Positions 1-6,485 of a stretch of 6,509 bases of DNA are shown in pieces. Below the pieces are notes generated by a model. It ran no database searches. It worked only from the letters and a program-made list of their open reading frames with translations, and had not been told where the DNA came from. How positions within the stretch are numbered: position 1 is the first letter of the stretch; each line of letters opens with the position of its first letter. Source of the DNA: Coriobacteriia bacterium (GTDB lineage: Bacteria; Actinomycetota; Coriobacteriia; Anaerosomatales; JAHIQC01); the NCBI GenBank assembly GCA_030653635.1, contig JAURYZ010000032.1, positions 1-6,509 on the forward strand, read 5' to 3'. The position numbers and the translations under genes are program-made.

Positions 1-3000
1 GCTCACGGAGTGACATGCGCGAGTCAGCGCGCAGCCGGTCGTGTGCACGGTCGTCAGGTCCGGTGTCTCCGTGGTGCCGTGACAGCCAGCGCCCAGTGCG
101 GTGCAGCCGACGTTGGTGGTGCCTACCGCATGGTTGGCGACGTTGGCATGCGCCGTGGCCGCCGAGGTGACATCGGTGTCGGCGTGGCAGTCCGAGCATG
201 CGCTCGTGGTGTTCTTGTTGGCCCAGCTGGCCTTGACAACGGCGGCGATGGTGGCCGAGTCGTTGTGGCACTTGACGCAGTTGTCCGCACCGGCAGCCGT
301 CAGTGTCGAGGTGGTGCGTTCGTGCTCGGTGCCCAGCACGCCGGTGTGGCATGCGGAGCAGGCGGCGGACTTGGAGTTGTAGGTGTAGGTCGCGCTCATC
401 TGGGTCGCACCGGCAGTGTGGTGGTCGGTGTCGATACCGTCAGCCAGACCGGCAGGGCCGTTGTGCAGCGCAGCGGTGTAGAGCGGGGTCAGGTGACAGC
501 CTGTGGCCTGGCCACAGGTCGTGAGTGTGGGCTTGGCGCCTTGAGTGGCGTAGTCGTGGCAACCGGTGATGTCACAGCCGGCCGCGTTCTTGTGCAGCTC
601 GTGCAGGTCGGTGGTGGTATGGCAGCCGATGCCCGATGACGCACAGCCTGCTGCGGAGGATCCGGCAACCGCAGGGGCGTTCGAGGTCGAGTGCTGGACC
701 TCGGTGGCTCCGAGCACGCTGCCCGTGTGGCAAGCGATGCAAGTATCGGTGCGGGTCGCGTCGGTGACGATCGTCTGGATCGCGGCGTTCTTGTTGTGGC
801 AATCGAAGCACGTGAGCGAGCCCGTACGCACACCTTGGTGCTGGGTGTAGAAGCCGTCAGGTGCCGCACTGACACCGTTGTGGCAGTTGGTGCATGTGGC
901 GGACGCGGTGCCGTTGGTGGTACCGCGAACGACGTTACCCATGCCAGTCGCTGTGTGGGTGGTCTCGTTGTAATGACCCGATGCCCCGGTGTCCATAAGG
1001 CCGACCACATCAGGAGCACCATCGTAGAGCGCCGCTCCGGCGCCGTGGCAGTTCTGGCAGGTGTTGGGATCGTTGAACTGCGCGAGGTTGTGGTTGGCGG
1101 CCGCATGGCACGCACCGCTCGTGCAGCCGTTGGCCGGGTGGATGACGGCATAGTCGGCCGGAGCCGGACCATGACAGCCGGCGCCTGCATCGGTGCAGCC
1201 AGTGACGCTCGTGTTGTTGTAGGTCGAGGCGGCAAGCGTGTGTCCGTGCGCCGTCATGCCCGCATGGCAGCCGACCGCAGCGCAGGAAAGCTCGGTGGGC
1301 ACCGTGGTGTTGTTCGCATGGCAGGTCGCGCAATCCGGCGTCATCAAGTTCGTGGTGATTGAGTTGGCGTGGATGACGGAGACATCGACGCTGTGGCATC
1401 CGGCGCCGGTGCAGGCGTTGGCGCTCACATCGTGCTTGGTGGTGGTGTCGGTGTGCTTGGGCGTATGGCACGCGTCACAGGTCTTGTCCCAAGCGCCGAC
1501 CAAAGCGGCGACCTTCACGGTGTGACACTCGACGCACTTGTCACTTGTGGAAAACGCCGAGGATGCCTTGAAGTGCTCGGGCTTCATCTCGGTCTTGTGG
1601 CACTGGGTGCACGCGAAGCCAGATACGGTGCCGGTCTGTGCGCTTGCTGTGTGCGTGGTCTCAGAACCCGTGTAGTGGTTCGGGTCTTTGGGGGTGTAGA
1701 CATGGGTGCCTATGACCGTGGCGTTGTGACAATCGATGCAACGCGCGGTGAAGTTGCCGTTGAGGTAACGCGTGTTGTTCGCGGTCAAGACCGCGTTGCC
1801 GTGACACTTCCAGCACCCGCCGTGGGCCGCCAGATCGGTAAAGTCGGTGTGGCATGCCAGACACTCGGCGTTTTGTGGGTACGCACCAGCGGTCGCTAGG
1901 TGCTTCTGGTCCTTGTTGTGCGGGACCTTAGCAGCCGAGTGGCAACCGACGGTCGTGCACGAGTAGGCGCTCGGAGGGGCGCTCGGTCCGTGACACGACA
2001 GGCAGCTCGCGTTGCCGGGCTTTGAGGAGTCGTGCAAAAGGTCTGCGAAGCTGATCTCGCCTAGAAGCGGGGTCGCGACGGCATTGTGGCAATAAAGTCC
2101 CGCACCCGGACCGCAACTGGCGGCGTTCGTGCCGTAAGGCCGGAAATCGTGCTTGGTGTTGTACTCGGCAGCCTCGTGGGGCTCGCCGGCACCCGTGGCG
2201 CTCGGCATACCTGAGCCGACCGCATGGCACACGATGCAGGTGTTGGTGGTGCCAAGCGTATCGAGCCAGTTCGCGGGCAAGTAGGAGGCGCTGTGGCAGT
2301 TCGAGCAGCGAACAGTGGCGTTACCCGGGCTTGTGAGCGAGCTTGTCTTGGCGTGCTCGCCGGTAAGCTCCATCGTGTGACAGCTCGAACAGCTGTAGCC
2401 GCCGGTGCGAAGCACGGCGGCTTGGCCATTGTTCGTGGCCGGATGTGCGACAGGCACGTGGTTGTCCATCGTGACAGCCGCTCCGGAAAAGCTCGCGTTG
2501 TGACAAAGCGAGCTCGTGCAGTCCTTGGTCGTGGGGAACACAGCCGTGCCGTGGCATGACAGGCAGCTCACCGAGTACGTGTTGGCCGAAAGCTTCGCGT
2601 TGTAGGCTCGCGCACTTCCCTCGGTGTGGATGATCGAAAGTTCGGTGCCGTGGCAGCCCTTGCAGTCTGTGCCGTTGGCGCCGGCACTCGCGTCATGGCT
2701 GGAGTCCACGAAGTCGTGCTTTTGCTGGCCTGCGTTGTTGTGGCAGGGCTGGGCCGCACCGTCGAGCGTGGCTGCGGTACCGCCGCAGGTGAAGTCGTAA
2801 TCGTTCAAGACGAACGGCGCATAGGTGGTGTGACACGCGCCGCAGCTCGAGGCTGTGGTCTTGGAGCTTGTGCGTGCATGCTCGGCGAACATGCTCATCG
2901 AGTGACAGCTCGTGCATGCGAAACCGGACTCTAGGCCCACCGTGTGGGTAGCCTCGTGGCTGAACGTCGCGCCGTGTCCGGTCGACTTGTCACCATGACA

Positions 3001-4110
3001 AGACAGGCATGCGGGCGCTATGGAGTCAGGTACGTTAGCGTAGACGCGGAAACTGTCGATCACGACAAAGGTTGCTCGTGCCGAGGCGTTCCTGGTGTTC
3101 AAGGGACGTACCGAGATCGTGTGCGCGCCGGGTGCCAGAACGTCCGAAGAATACACGATCGCCTGATAGACCGTGGAGGCACTGTATGTGTCGATGGTGG
3201 CGACCTTCGCACCGTCCAGATACACGTCGGCCCGACCGCGATACGGATCCTTGTCGCTCACAAGTTCGATGCGCTTGCCGGTGAAGGCGGCGGTGAGCCG
3301 TGAGCCCGCGACGTTGTTGTAGCTCATGCGCGAACCGGTGTAGATGGAAGAGGCCTTGTAGCGCCATGTGCCCACAAGGGTGATGGCGGAAGACGATCCA
3401 GTCGGGTCATCAGGGTTCTGACCTACGGCGTAGTTGTAGTCCTCGATAATCGCCGGTCGGTTGCCCTTGGTACCCTCGACGTCGTGGCATCCGGTGCTTG
3501 CGCACTGGTTGGTCTCGACGCCGGCGGTGCGCTGTGTCTGGTTACCGCCAACGACCCCATGACCGACAAGCCCGGTCCACGGAGCCCGGGCGGTGTAGTT
3601 CGCATTACCGACGGCAGAGTGATTTGTATGGTTCGCAGAAACCGCGCCTGTGTGACATGCGGAGCATGCCGCCGGAGCGTGACAGCTCGAGCAAGCCGAG
3701 GAACTCGTATCGACGTTCTTGGGCCAACGAGCATCCGAGTGGATGATGTGAAGGATGGCAGGAGAGGTGGCCTTGGAATTGGCAGACGTGAAGCTGGCCC
3801 CGGAGACCGGATCGGTATACGTGGGGACCGCCGTCATAAGAGAGTCGCCCCACCCGGGGTGACAGGCCGATCCGCAGTTGGAGCCGGACTGGTGGTACGG
3901 GTGCGTACCCACAAGGCCGCCGACGTGGCATGACTGACACGCGGTGTCGCGGTTCACGTCAGGCACGGGCATGCTCATGCCAGGACCGTGACACGTGAGA
4001 CAGCCGGTGTTGTCAGCAGCAAAAGCACCCGCCGAGAACGCCAAAGACGCCGCGACAACGATCATCGCGACGACAACTGCTCTGTGCGGGACGCCCAGAC
4101 GCTTGCTCAT
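1..4110 (-). CDS. Giant exported multihaem c-type cytochrome (3' end outside window)
   Basis: Predicted extracytoplasmic electron-transfer protein that binds many covalent c-type haems. Reading leftward from the ATG at 4110, all 1370 codons are open and no stop is reached, so the C-terminus is missing. Residues 1-31 form a Sec signal peptide. I count 42 C...CH motifs between residues 37 and 1367: 27 CXXCH (for example CLTCH at 37, CWKCH at 766, CVKCH at 1278), one CX3CH, seven CX4CH, two CX5CH, three CX6CH, one CX7CH and one CX13CH. Further His residues between them could be distal ligands. Residues about 224-362 are a haem-free beta-rich insert. The composition is rich in Ala, Thr, Ser, Asn and Gly. 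The layout resembles the doubled-CXXCH multihaem family. No lipobox or membrane anchor is visible, but one could lie in the missing part. An in-frame ATG 11 codons upstream (4143) is less likely because it has a weaker Shine-Dalgarno. The partner and substrate are unknown; extracellular electron transfer is an inference. Confidence 0.95.
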   Translation of the reverse strand, partial: MSKRLGVPHRAVVVAMIVVAASLAFSAGAFAADNTGCLTCHGPGMSMPVPDVNRDTACQSCHVGGLVGTHPYHQSGSNCGSACHPGWGDSLMTAVPTYTDPVSGASFTSANSKATSPAILHIIHSDARWPKNVDTSSSACSSCHAPAACSACHTGAVSANHTNHSAVGNANYTARAPWTGLVGHGVVGGNQTQRTAGVETNQCASTGCHDVEGTKGNRPAIIEDYNYAVGQNPDDPTGSSSAITLVGTWRYKASSIYTGSRMSYNNVAGSRLTAAFTGKRIELVSDKDPYRGRADVYLDGAKVATIDTYSASTVYQAIVYSSDVLAPGAHTISVRPLNTRNASARATFVVIDSFRVYANVPDSIAPACLSCHGDKSTGHGATFSHEATHTVGLESGFACTSCHSMSMFAEHARTSSKTTASSCGACHTTYAPFVLNDYDFTCGGTAATLDGAAQPCHNNAGQQKHDFVDSSHDASAGANGTDCKGCHGTELSIIHTEGSARAYNAKLSANTYSVSCLSCHGTAVFPTTKDCTSSLCHNASFSGAAVTMDNHVPVAHPATNNGQAAVLRTGGYSCSSCHTMELTGEHAKTSSLTSPGNATVRCSNCHSASYLPANWLDTLGTTNTCIVCHAVGSGMPSATGAGEPHEAAEYNTKHDFRPYGTNAASCGPGAGLYCHNAVATPLLGEISFADLLHDSSKPGNASCLSCHGPSAPPSAYSCTTVGCHSAAKVPHNKDQKHLATAGAYPQNAECLACHTDFTDLAAHGGCWKCHGNAVLTANNTRYLNGNFTARCIDCHNATVIGTHVYTPKDPNHYTGSETTHTASAQTGTVSGFACTQCHKTEMKPEHFKASSAFSTSDKCVECHTVKVAALVGAWDKTCDACHTPKHTDTTTKHDVSANACTGAGCHSVDVSVIHANSITTNLMTPDCATCHANNTTVPTELSCAAVGCHAGMTAHGHTLAASTYNNTSVTGCTDAGAGCHGPAPADYAVIHPANGCTSGACHAAANHNLAQFNDPNTCQNCHGAGAALYDGAPDVVGLMDTGASGHYNETTHTATGMGNVVRGTTNGTASATCTNCHNGVSAAPDGFYTQHQGVRTGSLTCFDCHNKNAAIQTIVTDATRTDTCIACHTGSVLGATEVQHSTSNAPAVAGSSAAGCASSGIGCHTTTDLHELHKNAAGCDITGCHDYATQGAKPTLTTCGQATGCHLTPLYTAALHNGPAGLADGIDTDHHTAGATQMSATYTYNSKSAACSACHTGVLGTEHERTTSTLTAAGADNCVKCHNDSATIAAVVKASWANKNTTSACSDCHADTDVTSAATAHANVANHAVGTTNVGCTALGAGCHGTTETPDLTTVHTTGCALTRACHSVS
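307..2916 (-). repeat. Four dispersed copies of a CXXCH-x6-EH-x-[KR] haem module
   Basis: The same 18-residue pattern occurs four times in the cytochrome: a CXXCH, exactly six residues, then Glu-His, one residue, Lys/Arg, and a Ser/Thr-rich end. Copies lie at residues 399-416 (bases 2863-2916), 574-591 (2338-2391), 834-851 (1558-1611) and 1251-1268 (307-360). Each is followed within about 6-11 residues by a second CXXCH (at 423, 602, 859 and 1278). In the first three copies a Gly-Phe/Tyr pair precedes the first Cys. The invariant His of EH is a good candidate distal haem ligand. The spread of copies suggests the protein grew by duplication of larger multihaem blocks. Confidence 0.75.
3025..3441 (-). 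other. Haem-free beta-sandwich-like module inside the cytochrome
   Basis: Residues about 224-362 lie between haem motif 6 (CASTGCH, ending at 209) and motif 7 (CLSCH, starting at 368) and contain no Cys. The sequence alternates short beta-like segments with Gly/Asp turns. Landmarks are YTGSRM, AAFTGKRIELV, DVYLDG, TIDTYS, IVYSSD, LAPGAHTISV and VVIDSFRVY. I recognise this pattern from beta-sandwich modules appended to secreted proteins of Gram-positive and actinobacterial type, often next to glycosidase or cell-surface domains. A role in binding carbohydrate or the cell surface is inferred; no binding residues can be assigned by eye. Confidence 0.7.
4018..4110 (-). other. Sec signal peptide of the multihaem cytochrome
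   Basis: Residues 1-31 have a basic n-region (MSKRLGVPHR), then a hydrophobic core of about 20 residues rich in Val and Ala, then an AFA-AD cleavage site after about residue 31. There is no twin-arginine motif and no Cys lipobox at the cleavage site. The mature protein therefore begins about five residues before the first haem motif. Export through Sec fits c-type cytochromes, which receive haem outside the cytoplasmic membrane. Confidence 0.88.
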
Positions 4111-4119
4111 ATTCACTCT

Positions 4120-4127
4120 CTCCCACC
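4120..4127 (-). promoter_or_regulatory. Ribosome-binding site of the cytochrome gene
   Basis: On the minus strand the sequence GGTGGGAG lies upstream of the ATG at 4110, with nine bases between its last G (4120) and the start codon. It supports 4110 as the start rather than the in-frame ATG at 4143, which has only a GGGGCAGG-like sequence before it and would put 11 extra residues ahead of the signal peptide. Confidence 0.7.
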
Positions 4128-4140
4128 AACATCGTCCGAC

Positions 4141-4167
4141 CATGATGGCCTGCCCCGGACCATCATG
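4141..4167. repeat. Perfect inverted repeat CATGATGG-N11-CCATCATG
   Basis: Two perfectly complementary 8-base arms (4141-4148 and 4160-4167) flank an 11-base GC-rich spacer. The element sits 31-57 bases upstream of the cytochrome start codon. It could be a protein operator with half-sites about 1.8 helical turns apart, or a stem-loop in the 5' leader. No T-run follows on either strand, so it is not a typical rho-independent terminator. No known regulator site was recognised. Confidence 0.6.
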
Positions 4168-4400: not shown

Positions 4401-6122
<1,722 letters not shown>

Positions 6123-6142
<20 letters not shown>

Positions 6143-6485
6143 CGGGATCACGTAGATGGCTGATGCCCTCGAAGCCAAGCTTTGAGAGGTCGCCGAAGTC
6201 GTATGTGATGTCGGATGTGTCCATGTGGCACAGCGCAATCAGCTCAGGGCTTGGTTCGCCGGGATTCTCGTTCTGCTCGAGGACCCGCTCCCACGATTCC
6301 TGCGTGAGCACGATCCGCGTCGGCACGAAGTACTCGGCTGGGATGGTGTCGAGTGCGCGGAAATGATACTCGAGCGCGTCCTCGATGAGCCGGCTCTTCT
6401 TGACGCCCGTCCGTCGCGAATACGCATCCAGCTTGCGCTTGGTCTCGCGTGAGATGTACGCGGATATTTGCACTTCGTCGCTCAT
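6123..6485 (-). CDS. Ribbon-helix-helix antitoxin of the GNAT toxin
   Basis: Predicted antitoxin and operon repressor, 120 residues. The N-terminus has the beta strand VQISAYIS (5-12) followed by two helices (about residues 14-45, with TGVKKSRLIEDAL), the pattern of DNA-binding ribbon-helix-helix proteins such as the DUF1778/TacA and CopG groups. The segment after residue 47 (AEYFVPTRIVLTQESWERVLE...NP) resembles the toxin-wrapping part of these antitoxins. The acidic tail (DPDDDAGD) may help to bind the basic toxin. It is longer than typical TacA-like antitoxins of about 90 residues. It is the first gene of the operon and overlaps the toxin start by 20 nt. An AGGGGG lies almost against the ATG, an unusually short spacing. 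In this class the antitoxin, often with the toxin, represses its own promoter. Confidence 0.87.

Follow-up and report, generated by a model that had tools for sequence, protein, structure and literature searches.

What is the role of a protein that strings more than forty haem-binding motifs along a single chain in a bacterium that probably belongs to the Coriobacteriia? The question is raised by a 6,509 bp stretch of DNA (hereafter the window), which is the entire contig C110 of a MAG comprising 1.52 Mb in 304 contigs at 64% completeness. On its minus strand, one frame of 1370 codons runs from base 4110 to base 1 without a stop. The initial annotation had described a single minus-strand cytochrome frame with 42 motifs that is still open at the window edge, and its frame, strand, coordinates and motif count are all borne out. 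The following features are referred to below.

1..4110, minus strand: giant multihaem c-type cytochrome of 1370 codons, with 42 C...CH motifs and a 3' end lost at the contig boundary (Pfam PF14522 and PF22113 exceed their cut-offs)
4118..4124, minus strand: GGGAGAG, likely the ribosome-binding site of the ATG at 4110, from which it is 7 nt away (sequence reading)
4015..4110, minus strand: predicted signal peptide, residues 1–32 (KR..., hydrophobic core, AFA followed by ADN; sequence reading and hydropathy scan)
3484..4002, minus strand: N-terminal haem head of six motifs, residues 37–209, every motif kept in 35/35 or 36/36 covering homologues
3028..3459, minus strand: haem-free insert, a CBM6/35/36-like jelly roll, residues 218–361 (structure matches of an AlphaFold2 model)
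1..3009, minus strand: haem chain of 36 motifs, residues 368–1370, running on past the contig edge
2740..2787, minus strand: long-loop motif CX13CH, residues 442–457 (alignment A1)
466..1158, minus strand: 8-motif repeat module, residues 985–1215, recurring in other giants
4656..5624, plus strand: divergent GDP-mannose 4,6-dehydratase gene, gmd (TIGR01472, 453.5 bits, cut-off 415)

Another in-frame ATG lies upstream at 4143; we favour the one at 4110 because of the GGGAGAG element ahead of it and because the same Met begins the relative P0001, which is 88% identical to the window protein. Since the window is a whole contig, the missing 3' end of the gene is simply the contig edge, and a search of the source assembly for the remainder, with the complete relative P0002 as query, returned only the window contig and paralogues. 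Past their match to the window protein, P0002 and P0003 (59% identity) continue for 847 and 797 residues, respectively, with 17 more motifs each, which leads us to predict a full protein of ~2,200 aa with ~59 motifs; the other nine relatives scanned for a tail carry 12–33 more motifs. By this estimate the available DNA would represent the front two thirds of the gene or so. Frameshifts breaking the frame, which the initial annotation had named as a reason to abandon the claim, were not observed. The frame is conserved among homologues, and its identity to P0001 in 50-residue bins stays at 94–100% up to residue 900 and at 86–98% over residues 901–1150, making a frameshift or other artefact unlikely. 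Identity then falls to 30–60%, which could mean that close strains have exchanged a module or that one of the two short contigs was mis-joined at a repeat. The residues beyond ~1150 are less secure because of this switch; residues 1101–1368 are colinear with P0002 at 61% identity over 268 residues.

The pairing of the cysteines supports the haem motifs more strongly than their mere number. All 84 Cys alternate as exactly 42 C...CH pairs, so that neither an orphan CH nor a free Cys is left. The motifs comprise 27 of the CX2CH type, one CX3CH, seven CX4CH and seven longer ones, whose cysteines are separated by 5, 5, 6, 6, 6, 7 and 13 residues. The 35 motifs that fit CX2-4CH compare with an average of 0.9 and no more than 6 in 500 residue shuffles. 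With its several motifs, its predicted secretion and its matches to curated families (PF14522, 62.4 bits against a cut-off of 24.8; PF22113, the MtrC/MtrF domain II/IV, 54.5 bits against a cut-off of 30), the protein qualifies as a multihaem c-type cytochrome. An alignment of residues 24–1200 with 36 homologues (A1) takes in 36 of the 42 motifs, the other six lying from residue 1199 onward. All 36 alignable motifs are conserved, in an alignment whose aligner rewards Cys and His and which includes eight shorter paralogues of doubtful placement past the jelly roll.

Conservation extends to the motifs with unusual spacing. At the CX13CH site the C...CH residues are kept in 36/36 homologues, but the loop has the same length in only 1/36; the CX7 site is kept in 17/18 covering homologues and two CX6 sites in 28/36 and 20/26, respectively (A1). 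The CX5 site at residue 1199 is nearly invariant (at least 90%) in a 29-row alignment of the module (A3), and the CX6 and CX5 sites at 1336 and 1360, respectively, are readable in P0002 and P0003. The solved structure of Geobacter OmcZ, in which a haem motif has a 14-residue loop, provides a precedent for the CX13CH site (PMC9473688, PMC11208441). Over residues 24–1200, 34 of the 41 non-motif His are conserved at 70% or more, one of them within the jelly roll, as compared with 36 motifs in the same region (A1), a figure close to one distal ligand per haem. We infer that haem is bound at every motif, with bis-histidine ligation, and that the haems would form a single continuous chain. The haem parts of the AlphaFold2 models are too uncertain for placing haems (mean pLDDT 47.6 for residues 24–1200, and 44.7 for the 8-haem module together with 28 other copies).

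How could such a protein be held outside the cell? Hydropathy detects the predicted signal peptide and, after it, no hydrophobic or membrane segment in the window protein as far as residue 1370, where it ends; the same holds for 17 of 18 relatives, and the 18th, a truncated frame from genome G025, has no such segment at all. The giant is predicted to be exported by way of the signal peptide, and is probably secreted. The initial annotation had proposed a search for a surface anchor, and Pfam and hydropathy detect none in the window protein, the C-terminus of which is missing; by Pfam, S-layer and wall-binding domains are absent from this incomplete protein and from two giants scanned. A few LPxTG-like strings inside five relatives have no hydrophobic tail behind them, and we take them for chance occurrences rather than sortase anchors.

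The haem-free insert suggests another mode of attachment. It sits in a confident part of the AlphaFold2 model, matches CBM6/35/36 structures and has, in the predicted structure, the jelly-roll fold of modules of this type. A fold reveals no ligand by itself, but this domain may bind glycan and would probably hold the giant in the wall or capsule. Jelly rolls of this family also occur in tandem in frames with only this domain among the matches listed, for instance those in G040:C21 and G046:C159. A paralogue in the same genome (L048 1721–4684, G000:C46; 987 aa, 18 motifs) shares the haem head and the jelly roll with the window protein at 53% identity and ends in haem-free repeats that appear Ig-like by eye. 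Its body differs from that of the giant, and hence the haem-CBM head has been reused on different bodies. Eighteen of the 105 homologues described below carry PF00754, positioned after the haem region where the ends were printed; this is F5/8 type C, another type of domain that is frequently associated with glycan binding.

Coriobacteriia are held to be monoderm. Omp85 was found in 0/61 genomes of the order searched, the source genome included, in a search whose control was positive in 7/14 named genomes; no outer membrane is therefore expected, and the order is very likely monoderm. The source genome has 69 matches to the wall-binding repeat CWB2, 67 of them over cut-off. It also has two ResB matches and five CcsA-type matches, so that the absence of a cytochrome c maturation system, on which the initial annotation would have withdrawn its claim, does not apply. 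One of the two ResB matches is weak and falls in a frame of 686 aa in which there is a CcsA-type match as well; this frame may represent a CcmF-type (System I) protein rather than a System II one. Attachment of haem would take place on the outside of the membrane, and its likely agent is a System II (ResB/CcsA) synthetase.

The window protein belongs to a populous family. A protein search, in which 7995 candidates were scored and proteins above ~2,400 aa were excluded by a length limit, yielded 105 homologues, and those with a named source come from MAGs of Coriobacteriia, Coriobacteriales or Actinobacteria/Actinomycetota; it is from these names that the class of the window's source is taken. 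Some match is present in 58 of 69 genomes of the same order (the source genome counted), many of these matches covering the jelly roll or one module only. Frames of at least 1300 aa that match beyond the jelly roll number at least 26, in at least 18 genomes of the order. A wider scan of genome contigs with the window protein added two remote loci, in Saprospiraceae and Poribacteria, and a scan of viral contigs gave no match.

Eleven giant frames (longer than 1300 aa) of the order are complete, with both ends inside the stretch: those of loci L038 to L045, the first frame of L046, L047 and L052. Counted from the first possible start codon, they span 1800–3107 aa and contain 43–80 CH. Orphan CH are absent from ten of them, with one in the other, and each has 2–8 free Cys, the last two forming a C-terminal pair in 11/11. 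The longest chain of haem motifs occurs in the frame of G025:C40 (L051 3675–16592), which has 4305 aa and 108 CH although its 5' side is cut by the contig end. Its motifs include 68 strict CXXCH, or 88 if counted as CX2-4CH; it has two orphan CH and two free Cys. No motif precedes residue 852, and the part that is lost may therefore be haem-free as well; the frame also contains an fn3 match. With 108 motifs this frame comes close to the published record of 113. A separate frame of ~4960 aa (L053 8155–19500, G032:C59; 25 CH in the 3781 aa read) combines the haem-CBM region with a haem-free portion of great length.

Among 13 aligned C-termini (A2), most share a block of the form ...PH..WKRPRL...C(x)nC..H...W(P). 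This block includes two Cys that belong to no haem motif and is common to the complete giants and to a shorter, 28-motif cytochrome. It may be a disulfide-capped end that possibly serves in export or docking. In the stretch L049 9496–15926 of the source genome (G000:C228), the 28-motif cytochrome, which has the same ...WP end, adjoins a 1081-aa protein that combines 9 CXXCH and three CWB2 wall-binding repeats with a stretch resembling cytochrome c552 (PF02335). The latter is likely a wall-anchored cytochrome and possibly a partner for the giant, which itself lacks an anchor.

The range of lengths is accompanied by a modular construction. The module of ~230 aa and eight motifs is represented by 40 copies of at least 150 aa among 53 cytochrome ORFs, a count that takes in the copy of the window protein. 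Internal repeats are revealed with cut queries, because in a plain self-BLAST the full-length self match masks them (as seen for the window and G025 proteins); they are found in 9/9 relatives at E 1e-10 and in the window protein at a looser E of 1e-6. Two stretches of the G025 frame, ~998 aa apart, are 92–93% identical, indicating either recent duplication or an assembly error. Wire length could thus have been set in evolution by the duplication and swapping of modules of ~200 aa and ~8 haems.

Genes of haem attachment and of glycan synthesis are found near a number of the giants. For 12 of the 26 listed long frames of the order, a ResB match is located at a distance of 8 kb or less; among the remaining 14, five have their ResB match 11–21 kb away, and the contigs of the other nine contain none. 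By Pfam, a ResB gene adjoins the giants of L038, L039, L051 and L052, with a CcsA-type gene confirmed at L038, L039 and L052. Since atypical haem motifs require a dedicated synthetase in the sulfite reductases of Wolinella and Shewanella (PMC6976685), the adjacent ResB-CcsA pair is an attractive candidate for such a role; the pair found beside many giants may serve their long-loop motifs. Downstream of the giant and on its strand, L040, L041, L042 and L043 encode a TPR protein and an NHL-repeat protein (both by Pfam at L040 and L041, NHL only at L043, and by similar layout only at L042), to which L040, L042 and L043 add a cytochrome with 6–7 CH.

Just as gmd stands divergent beside the window's gene, a glycan gene is found on the upstream side in 6/10 relatives scanned. 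It is ManC-type and divergent at L040, a glycosyltransferase at L042, L043, L045 and L047, and a sugar transferase at L044; L047 has a phosphomannomutase-type gene too, and at L045 and L047 one unscanned gene stands between the giant and the glycan gene. The other four have in its place an aspartyl-tRNA synthetase (L038), the CcsA/ResB pair (L039), an NHL-CWB2 surface protein (L041) and an ORF without a family (L052). Elsewhere in the window, a GNAT acetyltransferase gene (5606–6238, minus strand) overlaps a gene for a ribbon-helix-helix protein with a weak RelB-like match below cut-off (6123–6485, minus strand). Together (5606–6485, minus strand) they look like a GNAT-RHH toxin-antitoxin pair.

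What, then, could be the function of the giant? We consider it fairly probable that it acts as a secreted, glycan-held, one-piece electron conduit across the wall of a likely monoderm, Coriobacteriia-like bacterium, and that its role would be to export respiratory electrons to an outside acceptor. The idea of the initial annotation, a surface-located molecular wire of great length, is the best-supported reading, if still an inference. A functional parallel is offered by the cytochromes ImdcA, PdcA, CwcA and OcwA of Thermincola, likewise a monoderm with multihaem cytochromes through a thick wall, where 4–16 molecules of the six-haem CwcA are modelled across a wall of 20–80 nm (PMC7911101). The Thermincola relay is built from small proteins of 6–10 haems, with CwcA proposed to stack, whereas here one chain would span the distance. 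Under the borrowed geometry of the CwcA model (~5 nm per 6 haems), 42–59 haems would correspond to ~35–49 nm and 43–108 haems to 36–90 nm. If haem spacing is similar, the computed reach of the giants would thus fall in the same range as the wall thickness.

The same abundance of haems could be read differently. The giant could be a charge-storage capacitor, a surface reservoir of electrons that fills and empties with acceptor supply and has no role in end-to-end transport. Many motifs per chain would store many electrons, and the capacitor idea is mentioned for large cytochromes in PMC7399161, but nothing specific in the sequence or the neighbourhood points to it, and dense conserved motifs with distal His suit a chain equally well. 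We hold this reading to be unlikely, while noting that capacitor and wire roles are not exclusive and can coexist.

It is similarly improbable that the giant is a terminal reductase, held in the wall, in which at least one open, five-coordinate haem reduces a soluble or mineral acceptor and the other haems feed it. The seven long loops would fit such a function, given that removal of the long loop of OmcZ suppressed the reduction of soluble acceptors (PMC11208441). The number of conserved non-motif His relative to motifs (34, one of them in the jelly roll, to 36) leaves room for a few open haems. Against this, no catalytic cytochrome family matches over cut-off, and the sole match to a solved structure in a sequence search is a chain of NrfB (E 6e-4), an electron carrier.

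We regard as very unlikely a third possibility, that the giant is a long protomer of a polymeric filament resembling those of OmcS, OmcE or OmcZ. The C-terminal block of the complete relatives could be an assembly or export element; however, a sequence search of solved structures, which does not exclude a filament cytochrome, matched none, and OmcZ, which polymerises, has no detectable sequence match to the window protein. Finally, a store or scaffold for haem or iron, also suggested in the initial annotation and without specific support, is highly improbable, since beyond the high number of haem motifs nothing speaks for it, distal His conservation is unneeded for storage, no haem-degradation family is among the matches of the scanned neighbours, and covalent c-type haem attachment is hard to reverse.

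With the one-piece conduit as the preferred reading, how does the protein compare with known giants? Well-studied cytochromes have far lower counts, with 6 haems in OmcS, 8 in OmcZ and 12 in OmcB. The initial annotation measured the window protein against these three, a comparison that understates the known range, as proteins with 45, 49, 86 and 113 motifs had already been published. In bacteria these include 45 motifs in Geobacter, 49 in a Burkholderiales and 40 and 33 in Ignavibacteria, within a class of 30–53 (PMC7399161); average haem counts for Geobacter are given in PMC2825233. An MHC of Methanoperedens has 113 motifs (PMC7082337), and an MHC of ANME-2c has 86 motifs with S-layer and pectin-lyase-like domains (PMC9012536). 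These archaeal giants are likewise single chains with dozens to more than 100 motifs, likewise embed haem-free surface domains, the carbohydrate-associated pectin-lyase-like domain of MHC-C among them, and have been proposed as electron carriers through the outermost protein layer (PMC9012536, PMC7082337). MHC-A and MHC-B of the archaea have C-terminal membrane helices as well as S-layer domains, and neither feature was found in the window protein or the relatives scanned; the window protein is also unlike the ANME giants in the CBM35-like jelly roll after its sixth motif and in its long-loop motifs. MtrC and OmcA reside in an outer membrane with a porin partner, an arrangement not encountered here, Omp85 (a marker of the outer membrane, not the Mtr porin itself) being absent as noted above. 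The protein is not a member of the DmsE/MtrA family TIGR03508 (54.8 bits against a cut-off of 192.2).

Cytochrome wealth has been documented among the Coriobacteriia/Anaerosomatales (OPB41), probably of the same class as the window's source, with 37 MHCs in an anode Coriobacteriales genome (PMC7399161), 17–18 in two Anaerosomatales isolates (PMC9686372) and large MHCs in Horonobe actinobacteria (PMC5520028). The main-text passages of these papers give no giant family, CBM domain, module series or motif count of the largest protein, and we found no description of a CBM-bearing giant cytochrome family in this order in the open-licence literature, supplements aside. Giant multihaem cytochromes are known already; the combination and the motif range reported here are, as far as we have seen, new. 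Strain M08DHB of the Anaerosomatales, which was cultivated and has 18 multihaems, does not use Fe(III) (PMC9686372), and cytochrome wealth in this group is therefore no guarantee of metal respiration.

As a tentative and rather doubtful extension, we propose that one actinobacterial order may possess through-wall wires of adjustable length, each a single molecule, docked on glycan by the built-in carbohydrate-binding module, built from whole 8-haem modules in numbers matched to wall thickness (43 to more than 108 haems) and provided with a dedicated ResB-CcsA pair next door that would load haem at the variable-loop CXnCH sites. The published model for the passage of electrons through a monoderm wall of tens of nanometres stacks small cytochromes. 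With single chains of 43–108 motifs in module steps, the relation between haem number and wall thickness becomes testable, as does the question of whether one giant molecule spans the wall. The conserved motifs with varying long loops would, in turn, constitute a natural series for what a haem synthetase accepts.
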